Assembly: GCF_003261635.1 (NCBI RefSeq)
Contig: NZ_QFXK01000092.1
Span: 62,001-126,000 of the forward strand
DNA: 64,000 nucleotides
Source: Kribbella monticola
Lineage (GTDB): Bacteria; Actinomycetota; Actinomycetes; Propionibacteriales; Kribbellaceae
Reading direction: 5' to 3'
In this document: in pieces, positions 3,463 through 54,746 of the stretch
How positions within the stretch are numbered: the first letter of the stretch is position 1
Layout of the letters: each line of letters opens with the position of its first letter
Notes under the pieces: generated by a model
The model's input: the letters and a program-made list of their open reading frames with translations, nothing else
Database searches by the model: none
What the model was told of the DNA's origin: nothing
Made by a program: the position numbers and the translations under genes

Positions 3463-4872
3463 GTGCGACGGCGGTTCGGCCTGCGGGACCGGGTGATGCT
3501 CGCCTACGGACTGCTGGCGCTCGGGCTCTCGACGGTGCTCGCCCTGGTCACCTTCAACGTGGTCGCGAACTACCTCACCAACCAGCGCGAGTCGTCGGCG
3601 GTGGTCGAGACCGCGGACAACGCGGCCGCCCTGCACTACGGGTTGTTCAGCAGCGCCTCCCAGTGCCTGCCGAACCGGGACCGCAAATCCAACGAGTGCA
3701 GCGGTATCGCCCCACGGCCCAACGTGGACGTGCTGGATCTGCTGTATTCGTTGCCGTCCACCGACTCGGCGGCGTCGATGCTGTACTACGACGGCCAGTG
3801 GTTCTCGGCCACCGGGCGGCCCGAGGATCTCCCGGCGGACATGGCGACGGCGGTGCGGGCCGGCTCCGAGCAATACCGCCGGATGAAGGTCGGCGGCCAG
3901 CAGGTGCTCGCGGTCGGCGTACCGATGGCCCGGCCGGACGAGGCGTTCTTCGAGTGGCATCCGTTGTCGAACCTGGACAACACCCTGCGGACGTTGAAGA
4001 TCACCCTCGTCGTCGCCGCGATCCTGACCGCGCTGCTCGGCCTCGCCGTCGGCAAGCTGGCCAGCACGGTGGCGCTGCGGCCGCTGGCGAAGCTGACCCA
4101 GGTCGCGGCAGCGGTGGCCCGTGGACGGCTCGACGCCCGGTTGCAAGCCGAGGACGATCCCGATCTGGGCGGGCTGGCGCGATCGTTCAACCAGACGGCC
4201 GCGACGCTGGAGCAACGCGTGATCGCCGATGCCCGGTTCGCCGGCGACATCAGCCACGAGCTCCGGACGCCGTTGATGACGATGCTCAACTCCATGCAGC
4301 TGATCCAGAACCATTGCGGCGAACTGCCGCCAGCCGTGCGCGAACCGGTCGAGTTGCTCGGCGACGACCTGGAGCGGTTCCGCCGGCTGGTGCTCGACCT
4401 GCTGGAGATCTCCCGCGACGACGGCGGTGACCAGGGCAGTCGTGAGATCGTCCGGATCGCCGACCTGACCCGGGCCGCCGCGGATGCCGCGGCGGGGCGC
4501 GAGGTCACGACGGTCGCGCAGGACGCCGAAGGCCTCACCCTGCAGGCGGACAAGCGCCGGCTCGAACGGGTGATCGCCAATCTCGTCGAGAACGCCGAGT
4601 ATCACGCGGGTGGCTGCAAGGGCGTGCTGGTCCAGGCGGGCGGACTCGGCGTCATCATCTACGTCGACGACGCGGGGCCCGGCGTACCGGTCGCGGATCG
4701 GGAGCGCATCTTCGAGCGGTTCGGCCGCAGCGAGGACAACCGGCGGGGGATTGGGCTGGGGCTGGCGATCGTGGCCCGGCACGTCGAGTGGCACCACGGA
4801 ACCATCCGGGTCAAGGACCGCCCCGAAGGCGGCGCCCGCTTCATCGTCGAGCTGCCGGCGAAAACCAGCTGA
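3463..4872 (+). CDS. Two-component sensor histidine kinase (HAMP, HisKA, HATPase)
   Basis: Membrane sensor kinase of 469 residues that should phosphorylate the response regulator encoded immediately upstream. A transmembrane helix at about 13-35 and another at 180-198 bracket an extracellular sensor domain of roughly 140 residues with two cysteines (QCLPNRDRKSNEC) that might form a disulfide. A HAMP linker follows (200-253). The H box is DISHELRTP with His265, the N box NLVENAEYH, and the G boxes DDAGPGVP and GIGLGLAI. The GTG start at 3463 lies 3 bases after the regulator's stop. The signal sensed is unknown. A candidate -35 element for the next transcription unit overlaps its stop codon. 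Confidence 0.93.
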   Translation: MRRRFGLRDRVMLAYGLLALGLSTVLALVTFNVVANYLTNQRESSAVVETADNAAALHYGLFSSASQCLPNRDRKSNECSGIAPRPNVDVLDLLYSLPSTDSAASMLYYDGQWFSATGRPEDLPADMATAVRAGSEQYRRMKVGGQQVLAVGVPMARPDEAFFEWHPLSNLDNTLRTLKITLVVAAILTALLGLAVGKLASTVALRPLAKLTQVAAAVARGRLDARLQAEDDPDLGGLARSFNQTAATLEQRVIADARFAGDISHELRTPLMTMLNSMQLIQNHCGELPPAVREPVELLGDDLERFRRLVLDLLEISRDDGGDQGSREIVRIADLTRAAADAAAGREVTTVAQDAEGLTLQADKRRLERVIANLVENAEYHAGGCKGVLVQAGGLGVIIYVDDAGPGVPVADRERIFERFGRSEDNRRGIGLGLAIVARHVEWHHGTIRVKDRPEGGARFIVELPAKTS

Positions 4873-47696: not shown

Positions 47697-48041
47697 CTAC
47701 TGGCGGACGTGATCGACCCAATCGGGCGGCACGGTCCCACCGGGCACCGGCTGGCTGACAGGGTGACTGTCCGGTGCCGCGAGCTCCGGACCGTCGACGA
47801 ACTGCTCGGTCGTGTAGTTCCAGAACCAGTCTTCACCCGGCTCGAAGGACCGAATGATCGGGTGCCCCGCCTCGGCAGCATGCTTGCTCGCGTGCTGCTC
47901 CGGGGAACTGTCACAGCAACCGACGTGCCCGCACTCGGCACATCGCCGCAGGTGGAACCACCAGCCGCCCCCGTCCAGGCACTCCACACACCCGTTCCCG
48001 GACGGACCAACCTCCGGCCGGATCCCGGCGATCTCGGTCAT
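47697..48041 (-). CDS. UBP-type zinc-finger protein
   Basis: Protein of 114 residues with a UBP-type zinc finger: CVECLDGGGWWFHLRRCAEC, then HVGCCDSSPEQHASKHAAEAGHPI. The cysteines and histidines match zf-UBP ligands. Bacterial members are small stand-alone proteins of unknown role. It sits directly before the ECF sigma gene, so it may act in the same response. Confidence 0.88.
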   Translation of the reverse strand: MTEIAGIRPEVGPSGNGCVECLDGGGWWFHLRRCAECGHVGCCDSSPEQHASKHAAEAGHPIIRSFEPGEDWFWNYTTEQFVDGPELAAPDSHPVSQPVPGGTVPPDWVDHVRQ

Positions 48042-48150
48042 CCACACTCCTCTCACCACACCCCGGAGCCCGCCGTAGAGCGGCTCCCTTGCATTCCACC
48101 ACCCTGACACAAGCATCCGGTCCCGCGGCACCCGCGCACCACCTGGACGC

Positions 48151-49731
48151 CTAACGCAGGTTGTAGGTGCGCCAGCTGCCGAAGCTCGTGATGTCCCGGC
48201 CCGGATCAGCCGCGTCGGCGGTGCAGACGAAGCCGAGCACCTGTCGGCCGTCGACGAGTTCCACCGGACCGATCGCCAGCGGAGCAAGGATCGTCGCGAG
48301 GAAGCCGGCCAGTTCGGCGCTGGGCAGCGCCCAGACCTCGACTTCGATACCCGGTCCATCACTCGGCGTGAGAGTGCGGGTGACGCCGGGGCGAGGTACT
48401 GGGCCGTCCACCAAGAACATCCTGTAGTCGCGCGCCATGCGGCTCTCGAAGGCCAACCGGGCGCCTCGCAGTACGAGGTCGTCGTTGAGCGGCTGACCGG
48501 ACAGGTGAGCACCCGCCACCGCGAGGAGGATCTCGTCGGTGGACGGGGCGCGCGGCGGTACCGGCTCGCCGCACCACGCAGCAGCCAGGTCGATGATCAG
48601 CTCGTCGTGCCCGGCCGGCGCCAGCAGCTGTACGCCGAACGGCAGGCCGTCGTCGCGAGCGGGACCGGGGAAGGCGACGGCGCACAGGTCGAGCAGGTTG
48701 ACCATGTTCGTGAACCTGCCCATCCGGCTGTTCACCCCGACCGGATCGGCCGCCACCTCCGCCAGCGTCGGATGCGACTCGGTCACCGGCAGCAGCAACG
48801 CGTCGATCCGGGTCCACAACGGCTCCGCCTGCCGGGTCAGCGAGGCCAGCCGGTCGAATCCGGCGAACGTCTCCGCCGCGGTCAGCCCGGCGCCGCGTCG
48901 TACGATCGATCGGACCGTCGGGTCCACCGCGGGGTCGTCGTCGAGCTTGTCGCCGAAGGCGAGCCAGCGTTCGGCCAGCCACGGCCCGGAGTACAGCAGG
49001 TCGGCGGTTTCGAGCAGCACGCTGACGTCGACCGGTACGACGATGCCGAGCTTGGCCGCCTGGTCGACCGCCTCCGCCCAGGCGCGCTCGTGCAACGGGT
49101 CCATCCCGAGTGGACGATCCGGTACGCCGATCAGCGGAGCTCCGGTCGACGCGGCCGGCCGGGGCAACTGGCGCGAGTACGGATCGGCCGGGTCGTAGAC
49201 GGCCATCACCTCGAAGGCCCGGCGAGCGGTGGAGACCGTGCGGGCGAAGACCGTCACGCAGTCGAGCGACCGGCAAGCCGGAATCACCCCGGACGTGGAG
49301 ACCAGCCCTTTGCTCGGTTTGATCCCGACGATCCCGTTGAAGGCGGCCGGCACCCGCCCGCTGCCCGCGGTGTCCGTCCCGAGCGCGAAATCGACCTCGC
49401 CCGACGCCACCGCGACAGCACTGCCCGCACTCGACCCGCCGGAGATGTGCTGCTCGGAGAAGACCGAGTGACAGGCCCCGTACGGCGAACGCGTGCCGAC
49501 CAGCCCGGTCGCGTACTGGTCGAGGTTGGTCTTACCCAGCGCTGTCGCGCCGGCCTCGATCAGCCGCTCGACCACGAAGGCGTTGGCAACGGCAGGCGTC
49601 GTACTGCGCGGGTCGGCGGCCGTGGTCGGCACGCCGGCCAGGTCGATGTTGTCCTTGATCGCCATCGTCAACCCGTGCAAGGGACCGGGCTTCGGCTCGG
49701 CGGGCGGAACGCGCGTGATCCAGACCGTCAT
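48151..49731 (-). CDS. atzF: Allophanate hydrolase (amidase signature family)
   Basis: Hydrolyses allophanate to ammonia and CO2, the last step of urea or guanidine carboxylation pathways. It is 526 residues long, short of the ~600 typical of AtzF. The amidase triad is present: Lys26 in AIKDN, the cis-Ser in GGSSAGSA near 100, and nucleophile Ser124 in GTDTAGSGR. A C-terminal domain of about 90 residues (from about 440) fits the family's accessory domain. ATG 49731 overlaps the stop of the carboxyltransferase gene (ATGA). As part of a riboswitch-led operon its substrate should come from carboxyguanidine deamination. Confidence 0.9.
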   Translation of the reverse strand: MTVWITRVPPAEPKPGPLHGLTMAIKDNIDLAGVPTTAADPRSTTPAVANAFVVERLIEAGATALGKTNLDQYATGLVGTRSPYGACHSVFSEQHISGGSSAGSAVAVASGEVDFALGTDTAGSGRVPAAFNGIVGIKPSKGLVSTSGVIPACRSLDCVTVFARTVSTARRAFEVMAVYDPADPYSRQLPRPAASTGAPLIGVPDRPLGMDPLHERAWAEAVDQAAKLGIVVPVDVSVLLETADLLYSGPWLAERWLAFGDKLDDDPAVDPTVRSIVRRGAGLTAAETFAGFDRLASLTRQAEPLWTRIDALLLPVTESHPTLAEVAADPVGVNSRMGRFTNMVNLLDLCAVAFPGPARDDGLPFGVQLLAPAGHDELIIDLAAAWCGEPVPPRAPSTDEILLAVAGAHLSGQPLNDDLVLRGARLAFESRMARDYRMFLVDGPVPRPGVTRTLTPSDGPGIEVEVWALPSAELAGFLATILAPLAIGPVELVDGRQVLGFVCTADAADPGRDITSFGSWRTYNLR

Positions 49732-51677
49732 GCTCCCCACCTCGCCCGCTCGGCGTCGAAGGCGGCGCGCCTCTTGGCGCGAAGGGTGACGATGTCCATC
49801 GGTGCCTCCTGCTCGATGCGGCGGACGTCGGCGATCGAGAACGTCGCGGGTCTCACGTCCAGGTCTGCGCCGGCCTTGATCTGTTCCCGTCGGTCGGCAA
49901 GTTCGTGCGGACTGACGGGGGTGAAGCGGATCCGGTCGAACTGCCTGAGCAACCAGGGCTGTTCGTCGTTGTCCGAGATCCGCCAGACCGGCACGGTCCT
50001 GCCGACGAGCTGATAGCCGCCAGGCCCTTCCATGCCGTAGATGCACAGGTAGATCCCGCCGATTCCGACGGCATTCTGCGGCGTCCAGGTCCGGGCCGGG
50101 TTGTACTTCGTGGTGACGAGCCGGTGGCGTGGGTCGAGCGGTACGGCCACCGGTGCGCCGAGATACACATCGCCCATGCCGACCACCAGATAGGTGGCCG
50201 CGGCAACGATGTCGAACACCTCGGCACGATCGTCGAGGTCGTTCACGCGGCGGATGAACTCCACGTTGTCCGGACCCCAGGGCGCGTCCGGGCGGACCGA
50301 GGTCTGGTAGCGCTGCATCGCCTCGTGGGCGAGCGGATGGTCGAACGCGATCGGCAGGATCACCTCGCGGGCCGGCAGGATCACCGCCGCCGGGTCCGCG
50401 AGTTCGCCGGCCAGCCTCGCCAGTTGTTTCGCAAGTTCGTCCAGACCGAGGCGGGCGGAGTCGATTGCCACCAGCACCGACCGGACTCCCTCGACGATCT
50501 CGACGACGCCGTCGGGTCGGTCCCCGCGCAACGCTTCAGCCAACAGGTGAACCCAGACCCGGACGGTCAGGTCGAGTTCGGTAGGTCCCGCTTCCACCAG
50601 CAGATGACGGTCGCCGGACCGCCTGATCGTGTACGCCGGTACGGAACCCGCCCCGCCTTCCTGGTGAAGGACTTCCGGTCGCTCCGGGCCACACCCGATG
50701 GGCGTCACGGGTGGTGGGTCCTGGCGAAGATCGGCCAACCACGTACGGCGTACTCGCATGGCCTCCGCTGCGTTGTCCGGTGACACCGGGTGGAGCTGGA
50801 CGGCGTCGCCTGGCCGGAGCTGGCCGAGCATCCAGCGATCGGCCTCGATCACCACCGCCGGTACGACGAACCCTCCGAGCGACGGGCCGTCCTTGCCGAC
50901 GATGACCGGGGTGTCGCCGGAGAGCATGATGCCGCCGACCGGGTAGGCGGAGTCGTGCAGGTTCGAGGGGTGCAGGCCGGCCTCACCGCCGTCGTCGCGG
51001 GCCCAGCCTGGTGTGGGGCCGACCAGGCGGACGCCCGTGCGGTCTGAGCGATGGTCGACCAGCCAGGTCGTGGCGAAGAACTCCTCGACACCTTCGTCGG
51101 TGAGGTGGTCGGGCGCGCCGTGAGGCCCAGGAATGACCCGCAGCATCCAGTTGCCGGTCAGTTCGGGGAGCGTGATCGGTGCCGGCGTGAGGAGATTCTC
51201 CTTCCTGGCCAGGGGAATCTCGTCACCGTGCTGGAGCGGGCGGCCTTCTTGGCCGCCGAAACCGCCGAGGGTGAAGGTGGAGCGGCTGCCGAGGACGCGG
51301 GGAACGTCGAGGCCGCCCTCGATCGCGACGTACCCACGCATGCCGGGGCCGTCGAGCGGGCCGACGTCGAGCGTTGCGCCGGCCGACAGCTTGGCGACCT
51401 TGCCTGCCTCGAGCCTTCGTCCGTCGATGGTGGCCTGCGTTGCCGCACCGCCTACGCAGACCAGCCGGTCTTCGTCGGCCGTGATGGTCGGCCCGGTCAC
51501 GACGCATTCCAGGCCGGCTGCGTTGTCCGGGTTGCCGACGGCCGCGTTGAGGAGGGCGAAGGTGAGTTCGTCGACCGCGCCCGAAGGCGGTACGCCGACA
51601 TCCCAGAGACCTTGCCGACCGGCCAGGTCCTGGATCGTGGTCTGCATTCCCGGCCGGACGACGGTGAGTCGAGCCAT
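49728..51677 (-). CDS. Urea/guanidine carboxylase carboxyltransferase part only (no biotin carboxylase or carrier)
   Basis: Protein of 649 residues. Residues ~1-300 are the AHS2/CT_A_B part (TIQDLAGRQGLWDVGVPPSG). Residues ~310-600 are the AHS1/CT_C_D part, with SDAPW-like RPDAPWGPDNVEFIRRVN and VTTKYNPARTWTPQNAVGIG, which are strongly conserved in urea and guanidine carboxylases. Full-length enzymes have about 1200 residues: an ATP-grasp biotin carboxylase first and a biotin carrier with an MKM-type lysine motif last. Both are missing; the protein stops where the carrier linker would begin. Genes on both sides overlap it by 1-4 bases, so this is not an assembly break. It may use carrier parts encoded elsewhere. 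Confidence 0.88.
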   Translation of the reverse strand: MARLTVVRPGMQTTIQDLAGRQGLWDVGVPPSGAVDELTFALLNAAVGNPDNAAGLECVVTGPTITADEDRLVCVGGAATQATIDGRRLEAGKVAKLSAGATLDVGPLDGPGMRGYVAIEGGLDVPRVLGSRSTFTLGGFGGQEGRPLQHGDEIPLARKENLLTPAPITLPELTGNWMLRVIPGPHGAPDHLTDEGVEEFFATTWLVDHRSDRTGVRLVGPTPGWARDDGGEAGLHPSNLHDSAYPVGGIMLSGDTPVIVGKDGPSLGGFVVPAVVIEADRWMLGQLRPGDAVQLHPVSPDNAAEAMRVRRTWLADLRQDPPPVTPIGCGPERPEVLHQEGGAGSVPAYTIRRSGDRHLLVEAGPTELDLTVRVWVHLLAEALRGDRPDGVVEIVEGVRSVLVAIDSARLGLDELAKQLARLAGELADPAAVILPAREVILPIAFDHPLAHEAMQRYQTSVRPDAPWGPDNVEFIRRVNDLDDRAEVFDIVAAATYLVVGMGDVYLGAPVAVPLDPRHRLVTTKYNPARTWTPQNAVGIGGIYLCIYGMEGPGGYQLVGRTVPVWRISDNDEQPWLLRQFDRIRFTPVSPHELADRREQIKAGADLDVRPATFSIADVRRIEQEAPMDIVTLRAKRRAAFDAERARWGA

Positions 51678-52294
51678 CAGTGCCACCAGCCGAGGAGCTG
51701 TACGGGAGTGGGGTTCCAGCCGTTGCAGGGGTTGTTCAGCTGGGGGCAGTTGCTGATCAGGACGAGTAGATCGCGAGACGCCGTGAGTTCGACGTACTTG
51801 CCTGGGGCCGAGAGGCCGTCGGCGAAGGACAGGTTGCCGCCCGGATCGACGGGGACGTTCATGAAGAAGTTGAGGTTGTGGCCGAGGTTGCGTTGGCCGA
51901 TGCCGGCCTGCGCGCCGTACCGGAGGAAGGTCTGGCGACAGGCGTGCTGGTGACGCGTCGCCTCGCCGTACCGGATGACGTTGCTCTCCTGCGAGCAGGC
52001 GCCGCCGATCGTGTCGTGCCGGCCGCAGGTGTCGCCCGTGATGACCGCGAGCTCGTCGAGGCGGGTCGAAAGTAGGCGGGATCCGGTGGTGAGGAAGACC
52101 GCTCGCTGTTCGCGGACGGTGTCGAACGCGGAGTACCGGTTGTCGAGGTCATGGGCGTCGTAGAGCAAGGTGTCGACAGCCTGGTTGCCGTGCAGGTCGA
52201 CGATGCGGAGCCGGCCGCCTGCCGGTACGGCGATCAGGGCACCGTCGCCCGCAGCGATGGTGGTGTCCAGGGTCGACTCGAGGATGGTCGTCAT
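51677..52294 (-). CDS. Urea-carboxylase-associated protein UAAP2 (DUF1989; carboxyguanidine deiminase subunit)
   Basis: Protein of 205 residues of the DUF1989 family. Landmarks are LHGNQAVDTLLYDA, TGDTCGRHDTIGGACSQESN, NINFF-like NLNFFMNVPVD and LLISNCPQLNNPCNGWNPTP. Conserved Cys and His residues in GRHD and GACS likely bind metal. UAAP1/UAAP2 pairs form carboxyguanidine deiminase in guanidine-degrading bacteria, converting carboxyguanidine to allophanate. It overlaps UAAP1 (ATGA) and the carboxyltransferase gene (TGATG). Confidence 0.9.
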   Translation of the reverse strand: MTTILESTLDTTIAAGDGALIAVPAGGRLRIVDLHGNQAVDTLLYDAHDLDNRYSAFDTVREQRAVFLTTGSRLLSTRLDELAVITGDTCGRHDTIGGACSQESNVIRYGEATRHQHACRQTFLRYGAQAGIGQRNLGHNLNFFMNVPVDPGGNLSFADGLSAPGKYVELTASRDLLVLISNCPQLNNPCNGWNPTPVQLLGWWH

Positions 52295-52893
52295 ACCAGC
52301 GTCCTCCTCGACATCTCGAGAGCGCGGGCCGCCTCGTCCCGTTGGGGTCGATGGAGTTCTGTCGCGGGTGTCACCTCGACACGGACGGAGGCGGGGTCGT
52401 GGTAGGAGAGCGGGTGTGGGGCAGTCGAGATGACGACGAGGACGTCCTGCTCGGTGCGGAGATCGACGGTGTCGCCTGCTGCCGCGTGGCCGGGGCTGTA
52501 GGCCAGCCTCGTGTCGTCGGCGATGGCGACCTTCGAGAAGAAGTTGATGCTGGCGTGCAGGTCGGCCTCACCGAGACCGTGCTTCGCCAGTTCGGTGCAG
52601 AGGAGTTGGTCCTGCCGGAAACCGGTGAGGCAGTCGTGCCAGTCGAGAGTGGAGGCGGTCACGGACGCGAGCGCCAGGCCGCGATCCGACATGAGGACCA
52701 TCGGGGGCCGGATGCACGCCGACATCTGCGCCTTCAACGTGTCCGGGACATTGAGACGGTCGAGACGGTCGGGGCCGAACAACAGCATGGTCGCGTTCGC
52801 GTCGGGGCCCAGGGCGGTCAATCTGATCAGGCGCCCGGCACGGACGGGGAACGACCAAGCGGTGCCGCCTGGGAGCTCGTGCTGGTAGCTCAC
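52291..52893 (-). CDS. Urea-carboxylase-associated protein UAAP1 (DUF1989; carboxyguanidine deiminase subunit)
   Basis: Partner of UAAP2, 200 residues. It has ELPGGTAWSFPVRAGRLIRL, LNVPDTLKAQ, VLMSDRGLALASVTASTLDW and HDCLTGF, matching UAAP1. With UAAP2 it should release ammonia from carboxyguanidine. GTG 52893 follows AGGTGAACGC and overlaps the permease stop (GTGA). Confidence 0.9.
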   Translation of the reverse strand: MSYQHELPGGTAWSFPVRAGRLIRLTALGPDANATMLLFGPDRLDRLNVPDTLKAQMSACIRPPMVLMSDRGLALASVTASTLDWHDCLTGFRQDQLLCTELAKHGLGEADLHASINFFSKVAIADDTRLAYSPGHAAAGDTVDLRTEQDVLVVISTAPHPLSYHDPASVRVEVTPATELHRPQRDEAARALEMSRRTLV

Positions 52894-54452
52894 GCGTTCA
52901 CCTCCGCCACCTGGGGCGCCCGGCCGATGGACGCGTGGTACGGCGTGCGCTGGTACCGATAGGCCAGTACGCCGCCGATCGCGGTGACTGCCAGCGTGAT
53001 CAGCGGGAGGTAGTGGAGGTACCAGCCGTCGCCGGCCGGGTCGTAAACAGCTGCTCGCGGCCAGCCGAGGTTGATCGCCATCGCGAGTCCGTAGACCACC
53101 GCGACGCCGTTGATCAGCAGACCGAATCGGCCCAGGGAGAAGAGTTTCCGACCGTCCTCGTCGACACCGTCCGGCAACGGATCGCCCTTGAGCCGCTGGA
53201 CGAACAACGGCACGGTGACGAGCAGATAGGCGATGTAGAGCAGCGTGATGCACACGCTCGCGAGGCCGAGGAACAGGCCCGCGTTTCCGACGTTGACCAC
53301 GAGGCAGAGGGCGGCCCCGATACCCGGTACGACGGTCGCGAGTACCGGCGTACCGGTTCGTGGTGAGACGCGGCGGAGCTGGCTGGAGAACGGGAGGACG
53401 TTGTCGCGGGCCATCGAGAAGATCATCCGTGCCGCGGCGGTCTGGATCGCCAGCGTACAAACGCAAACCGCGAAGGCGACGTCGAGCAGGAGGAGTTTGC
53501 CGGTGGTGGTTCCGAGGCTGCTGGTGAGCACATACGGCAGCCCGCCGAGCGCGAGTTTGCCGTCGGTGACCGACGGCGCCGCCATCAGTGCGGCGACGAT
53601 GAGGAACGCGCCACCGATGCCCGAGGCAACGACCGCGCGGAAGATGGTGCGCGGCGTGGTGGCCCGCGGCTTGTGCGTTTCCTCGGCCAGTTCGCCTGCG
53701 CTGTCGAAGCCGACGAGAACGTACGCTGCCATCAACGCGGAGATCAGCAGCGGTACGACGTACCCGGTGGTGTGGTCCAGGTTGGTCGTGTGCAGCACCA
53801 CCGAAGGGCCGCGCTTGGAGTGAGTGACCAGCAGGACGACGAGCAGGACCACGCCGATGAGCTCGCACGTGACACCGACGGAGTTGACGATCGCGGTGAC
53901 ACGAACGCTGACCGCGTTGAGTGTGGTGGTCACCACGAGCAGGAGGCAGCCGAGCAGTACGGCGTTGGCCGCGCCGTCGCGGGACGCCAGCGAGGGATCG
54001 GTGCCGATCAGTTGGAAGCCGGTCCAGACGGCTGGAAGCACCACCTGCAAGGCGATCGCGGCCGCCGCGACGGTGATGATCTGTGCGATCACCATCGTCC
54101 AGCCTGCGAACCAGCCGACCACCGCGCCACCGAGCCGTCGAGACCACTGGTAGATAGCGCCCGACAGCGGATAGCGGGCGGAGAGTTCGGCGAAGCAGAG
54201 GGCCACTGTCAACTGGCCCGCGAGAACGGCCGGCCAGGTCCAGAAGAACGCCGTACCGCCGAACCCGAAGCCCAGCCCGAACAGCTGGAACACCGTGGTC
54301 AGGATCGAGACGAACGAGAAGCCGGCCGCGAACGACGCGTAGCGCCCGACCCGCCGATGCAGTTGCTGCTCATAGCCGAAGCCGCCGAGCTCGGCCGCGC
54401 TGACACCGTCCGGCGTACCGGCCACCGCGGTGTGATCGAGGGTTGCTGACAT
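52890..54452 (-). CDS. APC-superfamily permease, probable guanidine/urea-type nitrogen uptake
   Basis: Inner-membrane transporter of 520 residues with about 12 helices and amino-acid-permease landmarks (FSFVSILTTVFQLFGLGF, FAELSARYPLSGAIYQWSRR, FDSAGELAEETHKPRATTPR). It is the first gene after a guanidine-I riboswitch and overlaps UAAP1, so guanidine or a related guanidinium compound is the likely substrate. ATG 54452 has GGGAGG at good spacing, 55 bases downstream of the aptamer. Confidence 0.88.
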   Translation of the reverse strand: MSATLDHTAVAGTPDGVSAAELGGFGYEQQLHRRVGRYASFAAGFSFVSILTTVFQLFGLGFGFGGTAFFWTWPAVLAGQLTVALCFAELSARYPLSGAIYQWSRRLGGAVVGWFAGWTMVIAQIITVAAAAIALQVVLPAVWTGFQLIGTDPSLASRDGAANAVLLGCLLLVVTTTLNAVSVRVTAIVNSVGVTCELIGVVLLVVLLVTHSKRGPSVVLHTTNLDHTTGYVVPLLISALMAAYVLVGFDSAGELAEETHKPRATTPRTIFRAVVASGIGGAFLIVAALMAAPSVTDGKLALGGLPYVLTSSLGTTTGKLLLLDVAFAVCVCTLAIQTAAARMIFSMARDNVLPFSSQLRRVSPRTGTPVLATVVPGIGAALCLVVNVGNAGLFLGLASVCITLLYIAYLLVTVPLFVQRLKGDPLPDGVDEDGRKLFSLGRFGLLINGVAVVYGLAMAINLGWPRAAVYDPAGDGWYLHYLPLITLAVTAIGGVLAYRYQRTPYHASIGRAPQVAEVNA

Positions 54453-54507
54453 TCGGGCCTCCCGCATCGTCGGCCCGGAACCCACACGGCAACCCGGGCC
54501 ATCAAGG

Positions 54508-54618
54508 CCTCCCGGGCTTTTGTCCCGCCGTGGAACGGACCCGGCGACAGCACCCGGTCCGTCTCCCCTCTCGGACCAGCCCTCCCGTCACCGGAAGCGG
54601 AACCCTAGGGGCGCCCCA
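54508..54618 (-). ncRNA. Guanidine-I (ykkC) riboswitch aptamer
   Basis: On the minus strand, read 5' to 3', the consensus blocks appear in order. They are CTAGGGTTCCG (54608-54598), GGCTGGTCCGAGAG (54581-54568), then ACGGCGGGACAAAAG with CCCGGGAGG (54531-54508). These are the hallmark ykkC motifs. A variable hairpin, GACGGACCGGG-N-CCCGGGTCCGTT-like, fills the middle. After the aptamer, CCCGGG near 54493-54498 can compete with the aptamer's last strand, and GGCCCGG/CCGGGCC can form a hairpin before the permease RBS. This suggests guanidine-dependent control of the operon. Confidence 0.9.
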
Positions 54619-54746
54619 CCACTCCGGCGGGTCCCCCTCAGTCCACCCCCCACGTGTTACCCCCCACCCCCTCCCCTGTAACACCCCCATGAACACACCC
54701 TCACACCCCCAGCCCCATCCCAACCGACACCTGTGAGGTCAGAAGC

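Follow-up and report, generated by a model that had tools for sequence, protein, structure and literature searches.

The known guanidine and urea carboxylases (TIGR02712, uca) are single chains with their own biotin machinery, in which an N-terminal biotin carboxylase (BC) and a C-terminal biotin carrier (BCCP) accompany the carboxyltransferase (CT). Their distant 5-oxoprolinase relatives PxpB and PxpC (YbgJ/YbgK; MSMEG_0435-0436) are stand-alone homologs of the CT domains AHS1 and AHS2, encoded without BC or BCCP, and are not known to depend on biotin. A third arrangement, which we propose as a parallel, is that of the actinobacterial acyl-CoA carboxylases, where one BC-BCCP subunit, AccA3, serves several CT subunits; the CTs of those enzymes are of the unrelated PF01039 type. 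Here we describe a gene in a 64,000-nucleotide stretch of a Kribbella genome (the window; source assembly 8.03 Mb in 90 contigs) that encodes a CT alone in an otherwise complete guanidine operon. Its product resembles the guanidine and urea carboxylases (structures 3va7 and 5i8i) in CT domain order, fold, catalytic lysine block and in its UAAP1, UAAP2 and allophanate hydrolase (AH) partners, but it lacks BC and BCCP, has Met where they have Asp or Asn, and scores below the TIGR02712 cut-off. Judging from sequence, we think it rather probable that guanidine carboxylase is modular here, split between this CT and a biotin-bearing partner that acts in trans and is most likely AccA3. Among the open-access (PMC) papers searched, none was found to describe a guanidine carboxylase without BC and BCCP.

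The open frame of the CT gene (49728-51686, minus strand) probably starts at the ATG at 51677, and the only Pfam domains in its product are CT_A_B (E 9.8e-83) and CT_C_D (E 3.1e-37). Pfam and NCBIfam scans detected neither a BC nor a BCCP domain in the protein, and the Pfam scan found no carboxyl_trans domain (PF01039), which belongs to acyl-CoA carboxylase beta subunits. TIGR02712, the model of the full enzyme, aligns over positions 448-1106 of 1201 with 774.9 bits (cut-off 1303.85), while three full-length relatives reach 1669-1774 bits. The PxpB/PxpC models TIGR00370 (44.1 bits, cut-off 145.55) and NF045499 (161.8 bits, cut-off 500) also stay below threshold.

On the minus strand the riboswitch is followed by permease, UAAP1, UAAP2, CT and AH (Table 1). 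All four gene junctions overlap by 1-4 bases, namely GTGA (permease/UAAP1), ATGA (UAAP1/UAAP2), TGATG (UAAP2/CT) and ATGA (CT/AH); the operon therefore has no room for a BC or BCCP gene. Its aptamer, together with genes for the permease, both UAAP proteins, a carboxylase and AH, identifies it as a Guanidine-I-controlled operon, the carboxylase being a CT only. Scoring of 150 of the 231 first-look candidates gave no second Guanidine-I match in the genome; the search for other classes of guanidine riboswitch covered the window only. These results bear out the initial annotation, which had described a riboswitch-led, otherwise complete guanidine operon, a carboxylase gene limited to its AHS2 and AHS1 parts, and overlapping neighbors that supply neither BC nor carrier. 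A seemingly complete operon can conceal an incomplete enzyme.

Table 1. Features of the guanidine operon in the window, listed from the riboswitch downstream
Feature	Position	Strand	Model matches
Guanidine-I (ykkC) riboswitch aptamer heading the operon	54507..54619	-	Rfam RF00442, 74.2 bits (gathering 63)
APC-type permease, urea carboxylase system type	52890..54485	-	PF13520; TIGR03428 690.8 bits, below cut-off 740.45
UAAP1 (DUF1989), predicted carboxyguanidine deiminase subunit	52291..52893	-	PF09347; TIGR03425 160.7 bits (cut-off 205.95); both inside ORF 52291-54147
UAAP2 (DUF1989), predicted carboxyguanidine deiminase subunit	51677..52294	-	TIGR03424 288.2 bits, above cut-off 284.7
Stand-alone carboxyltransferase (CT; AHS2-AHS1 / CT_A_B-CT_C_D), 649 aa, without BC or BCCP; Asp212, Met251, Glu396, Lys524	49728..51677	-	
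Allophanate hydrolase (AH; amidase + AH_C)	48151..49731	-	TIGR02713 619.2 bits, above cut-off 511.05; PF01425, PF21986

The short gene is real and no effect of chance or assembly, because the same CT-only form is present in 24 of 38 Kribbella genomes (counting G033, where it lies in two pieces of one frame) and at 51 loci of a named genome collection. Those loci were obtained by scanning with eight sequences of the window's type, and their genomes overlap with the Kribbella set and with the class sample described next. They come from Kribbella, Nocardioides, Actinokineospora, Pseudonocardia, Amycolatopsis, Kutzneria, Blastococcus, Goekera, Planosporangium, Yinghuangia and Actinospica and from several metagenome-assembled genomes. 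Of 394 evenly sampled genomes of the class, 49 matched at E<=1e-80. Sorted by frame length and residues, five are of the window's type (G000, G177 and G111, plus G118 and G254, both truncated at a contig end), 12 encode a CT alone with Asp at position 251 (see below), and 32 are full-length or contig-cut; the contig-cut G132 is counted among the 32, and lower-scoring frames were sorted without detailed reading. Two of the 12 genomes (G126, G429) also hold a full-length gene, which in G126 is of the Asn type (L094).

The two-domain form also recurs beside DUF1989 genes in other actinomycetes, a pattern that the initial annotation had suggested looking for: UAAP1 and UAAP2 stand next to the CT gene at all 51 loci, with UAAP2 close upstream except at L133 (about 1.2 kb from the CT match). 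A covariance model built from nine riboswitches detected Guanidine-I-like RNAs at 49 of the loci, and the remaining two contigs stop inside the operon. No BC or BCCP match lay near the CT gene at any of the 51 loci, which span 4.6-14 kb (blastp E<=1e-6; queries were AccA3, the small biotin protein discussed below, and the BC/BCCP parts of a full-length enzyme). Four long CT frames checked for a concealed BC (L133, L135, L138, L144) have two CT domains and no further Pfam domain at E<=0.01. One locus, L141, has two Guanidine-I-like RNAs, at 1001-1112 (far upstream) and at 4594-4694 (just before UAAP1).

One of the two findings that the initial annotation had named as refuting its reading was that the gene is a dispensable, decayed leftover of a full-length guanidine carboxylase. 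Two of three functional parts are indeed missing, and 14 of the 38 Kribbella genomes do not have the gene. We consider decay very improbable, however: dN/dS against four relatives is 0.106, 0.153, 0.149 and 0.212 (dS near 1 in three), the catalytic block is intact, the UAAP pair accompanies the gene at all 51 named-genome loci, and sequences of the window's type form one group of 45 rows with 100/100 support. These values indicate that the CT gene is conserved and under selection.

The predicted structure of the CT protein (35 sequences, mean pLDDT 81.4, pTM 0.85, several conserved loops at low confidence) has as its best solved relatives the K. lactis urea carboxylase (KlUA) entries 3va7 and 5i8i, with TMq 0.88-0.89 and 37% identity. 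The catalytic block DPRHRLVTTKY is intact, and Lys524 aligns with KlUA Lys1605, described as the likely general base (PMC5770610). Lys524 is kept at each of the 46 named-genome loci that reach the position. In a row alignment that includes genomes present in two collections and leaves out eight rows shorter than 450 aa and two rows of a broken gene (L169), the catalytic lysine is found in 70/70 Met-type, 12/12 Asp-type CT-only, 2/2 Ile-type and 28/28 full-length rows. The DPRHRLVTTKY block is in none of four aligned PxpB sequences. Because it is kept here yet not in PxpB, the block favors a genuine carboxyltransferase over a 5-oxoprolinase subunit.

The same evidence bears on whether the chemistry itself might differ, the CT working without carboxybiotin, for instance in an ATP-dependent or carboxyphosphate-using reaction. 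We hold this to be distinctly improbable, and less likely than a carrier encoded elsewhere. It would fit with the lack of a BC or BCCP match in or near the operon at all 51 loci, with the existence of AHS1/AHS2 homologs that do without biotin, and with a substrate pocket altered at Met251 and Glu396. The retained block and general base argue against it, however, as does the much higher score of the CT on the urea carboxylase model than on the PxpC model. PxpB and PxpC differ further in being two genes and, in the four pairs aligned, in having Gln at column 251.

If the CT does use carboxybiotin, a partner must supply it. The Kribbella genome itself has three BC genes: an AccA3-type gene of 604 aa, an MccA-like gene whose frame is broken in two, and a fusion of 1833 aa that includes a CT of its own. 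Apart from the first, no BC-BCCP that is both intact and unfused was found in the genome; searches with TIGR02712, PF02785 and PF00364 yielded housekeeping genes only. The initial annotation's suggestion of a carrier encoded elsewhere is the best explanation, the operon supplying neither BC nor BCCP. The other finding that it had named as refuting, a BC-carrier gene elsewhere shown to form the normal enzyme, was addressed by sequence search, which found housekeeping BC-BCCP genes and no dedicated one. AccA3 is present in 38/38 Kribbella genomes (in G017 split over two contigs), and the same three kinds of BC recur across them with or without the CT gene (in each genome, 34 candidates were scored out of up to 63 from the first look). 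Because the AccA3 search in these 38 genomes found no BC that is common to CT carriers and absent from non-carriers, an AccA3-type subunit is the simplest source of carboxybiotin. Conserved flanking families offer no partner either: among the top 15, those at 31-45 loci are by position the permease, UAAP1/UAAP2, CT and AH, and the next families (at 17 loci or fewer) mostly fall within operon genes on the other strand and resemble antisense frames.

The same modular enzyme might use another carrier, either the MccA-like alpha subunit or a stand-alone biotin/lipoyl protein of 73 aa (BLP) that a housekeeping BC would charge. BLP occurs in 35/38 Kribbella genomes and has the highest BCCP score in the genome on the urea carboxylase model, but the differences are trivial (49.3 bits, against 49.2 for MccA-like and 45.6 for AccA3). 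At E<=1e-12 it was not found in two of the 24 carriers (G015 and G022, both fragmented assemblies) or in one of the 14 non-carriers (G003), which weakens the case for BLP as an obligatory carrier. The MccA-like gene (L085 6119-8508, contig C80) has an MCC-type BT domain and neighbors that on visual inspection resemble leucine-type catabolic genes, and a Gly/Ala-rich low-complexity stretch divides it into two frames, whether by assembly error or in reality. Such a carrier seems to us improbable.

For AccA3, published work offers precedents. Mycobacterial AccA3 is described as common to three acyl-CoA carboxylase complexes (PMC11001197), pull-down experiments pair it with AccD4 and AccD5 (PMC4347857), and Lombard and Moreira raised the possibility in 2011 that urea carboxylase (UC)-type CTs may collaborate with other BCs (PMC3199775), a question for which the present gene would provide a natural case. 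PDB entry 9yx5 (released November 2025) bears a title that names MSMEG_0435-MSMEG_0436 as bound to the long-chain acyl-CoA carboxylase complex of M. smegmatis, and its chain list comprises AccA3 chains and AHS-type chains. By analogy, the entry suggests that a protein of AHS/CT-like fold can sit on an AccA3 complex. In its own right, it links AHS proteins with fatty-acid carboxylases.

In the pathway that we favor, guanidine would induce the operon through the Guanidine-I riboswitch and be brought in by the permease. An AccA3-type BC-BCCP, the acyl-CoA carboxylase alpha subunit made elsewhere, would load its biotin with CO2 at the expense of ATP and hand the carboxybiotin to the stand-alone CT, which would carboxylate guanidine. 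UAAP1/UAAP2 would then deiminate carboxyguanidine to allophanate, from which AH would free ammonia and CO2. From sequence we infer that the CT is active, that guanidine is its substrate and carboxybiotin its donor, and that AccA3 is the partner; the later steps are assigned by family. A conserved, riboswitch-controlled CT makes it testable whether the BC-carrier subunits of fatty-acid metabolism also serve nitrogen assimilation.

Several observations weigh against this pathway. A physical or functional association of the CT with AccA3 would rest on the precedent of 9yx5, an entry known from its title and chain list that concerns PxpB/C-type proteins and not the window's clade; its AHS-type chains are closer to the PxpC of the Kribbella genome (E 2.1e-76) than to the CT gene (E 9.4e-29). 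The presence of AccA3 is universal in the genus and so does not discriminate. Two CT carriers (G015, G031) have a fourth BC gene, compared with none of the 14 non-carriers; it was set aside as the partner, the other 22 carriers having no such gene. At the named-genome loci, the permease was found at 43 of 51 and AH at 42 (on the opposite strand at L127), several contigs ending early. The remaining points concern residues 251 and 212 of the CT protein.

Residue 251 aligns with KlUA Asn1330, probably the active-site position that separates guanidine from urea enzymes, and the split of column 251 in full-length rows (Asp in 21, Asn in 7 of the 28) points to the same identification. That position is reported to be Asp in guanidine carboxylases and Asn in urea carboxylases (PMC12186494). 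In the window's clade it is Met at 51/51 named-genome loci: the Asp typical of guanidine carboxylases is missing, and the Asp/Asn rule does not cover this Met-type clade. In the loci checked, Asp251 goes with UAAP genes (L092, L093, L095 and L096 of the class, viewed with wide flanks; L162; plasmid loci L163-L167), whereas Asn251 goes without them (L094; the urt-linked plasmid locus L168). Column 251 is Gln in the four PxpC sequences. All this leaves some room for a CT that carboxylates something other than free guanidine, for example a substituted guanidine. We nevertheless regard another substrate as unlikely, given that the clade retains both its Guanidine-I riboswitch and its UAAP1-UAAP2 pair and that AH accompanies most loci. 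Moreover, residue 396 is Glu at the 48 named-genome loci that reach it (48/48), as opposed to Pro in 28/28 full-length rows, and Glu396 could replace the lost carboxylate of Asp251. Met251 and Glu396 are each found in 70/70 Met-type rows of the row alignment.

Asp212 had looked like a mark of CT-only proteins, occurring in 84/85 CT-only rows (duplicates included), at 51/51 named-genome loci and in 1/28 full-length rows. It is now a lead only: the full-length protein of L162 has Asp212, and the CT-only protein of L161 does not. An alignment also places it in one of the four PxpC sequences and in the M. smegmatis chain of 9yx5. Because L162, one PxpC and the 9yx5 chain carry it and L161 lacks it, Asp212 may be old and not a docking mark. 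The L161 gene (7263-9443, genome G556) is itself peculiar, a CT-only homolog with Arg for the catalytic Lys and Ala at 251; no match to UAAP, AH or permease was found near it, and it possibly has another function or is a decayed copy.

Stand-alone CTs are not confined to the window's clade. Those of family f7 (loci L064-L075; e.g. L037, L041) likewise consist of a CT only and adjoin UAAP1/UAAP2, and no BC match was found near them at 11 of the 12 loci, each 11-16 kb long; at the remaining one, L068, a BC domain lies in a frame of 1134 aa, probably a pyruvate carboxylase, some 3 kb away from the CT gene. Unlike the window's CT, they keep Asp251. In both trees without outgroup the Met-type rows form one group (100/100), while the f7 rows form their own group nested among actinobacterial full-length enzymes; the stand-alone forms therefore have at least two separate histories. 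Because of its nested position, the f7 form is, on these trees, a secondary split from full-length enzymes. Two further stand-alone CTs, from another class (family f84; L159, L160), have Ile at 251 and adjoin UAAP1/UAAP2 and AH; this Ile-type pair joins the Met-type side at 97/90 in one tree without outgroup. No Guanidine-I-like RNA was detected at E<=1 at the 12 Asp-type stand-alone, five full-length class or two Ile-type loci. Within the sampled phylum, the Guanidine-I riboswitch goes with the Met type; outside it, such RNAs are found at 3/7 plasmid loci with full-length enzymes (one broken). A link of f7 to M. smegmatis MSMEG_2187, a GlnR/AmtR-regulated 'urea amidolyase' in three papers (PMC3662644, PMC4222082, PMC4617892), was considered and is not proved.

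In a tree rooted with PxpC and PxpB, the full-length enzymes and the nested Asp type form one group (96/95), with the Ile type outside it and the Met type at the base. The root falls within or beside the Met-type rows, which group together in 32% of bootstrap trees; the outgroup branch is very long (2.5 changes per column on each side, with one outgroup row very long). Taken at face value, this tree would mean that the stand-alone form came first, which we treat as a lead in view of that branch. The tree at least allows the stand-alone form to be ancestral, so that the initial description of a carboxylase "reduced" to its CT half is not supported as worded: the gene is neither decayed nor clearly derived from a full-length one. 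A rather doubtful history would then be that guanidine carboxylase began as a free-standing CT on a shared acyl-CoA carboxylase alpha subunit, that the one-chain enzyme is a later fusion which split again in f7, and that the riboswitch lineage moved the guanidine-holding carboxylate (Asp251 to Met, Pro396 to Glu). If true, such an ancestor would tie nitrogen scavenging to the fatty-acid hub.

Finally, two minor observations can be recorded. At L169 (4001-7539, Rhizobium ruizarguesonis plasmid pRlX3) a urea carboxylase gene lies in two overlapping frames, and an unbroken copy is on a Rhizobium etli plasmid (L163). Downstream, a frame at 47697-48512 of the window (minus strand) encodes a zinc finger of the UBP type (PF02148, E 8.8e-13), which takes its name from ubiquitin hydrolases.

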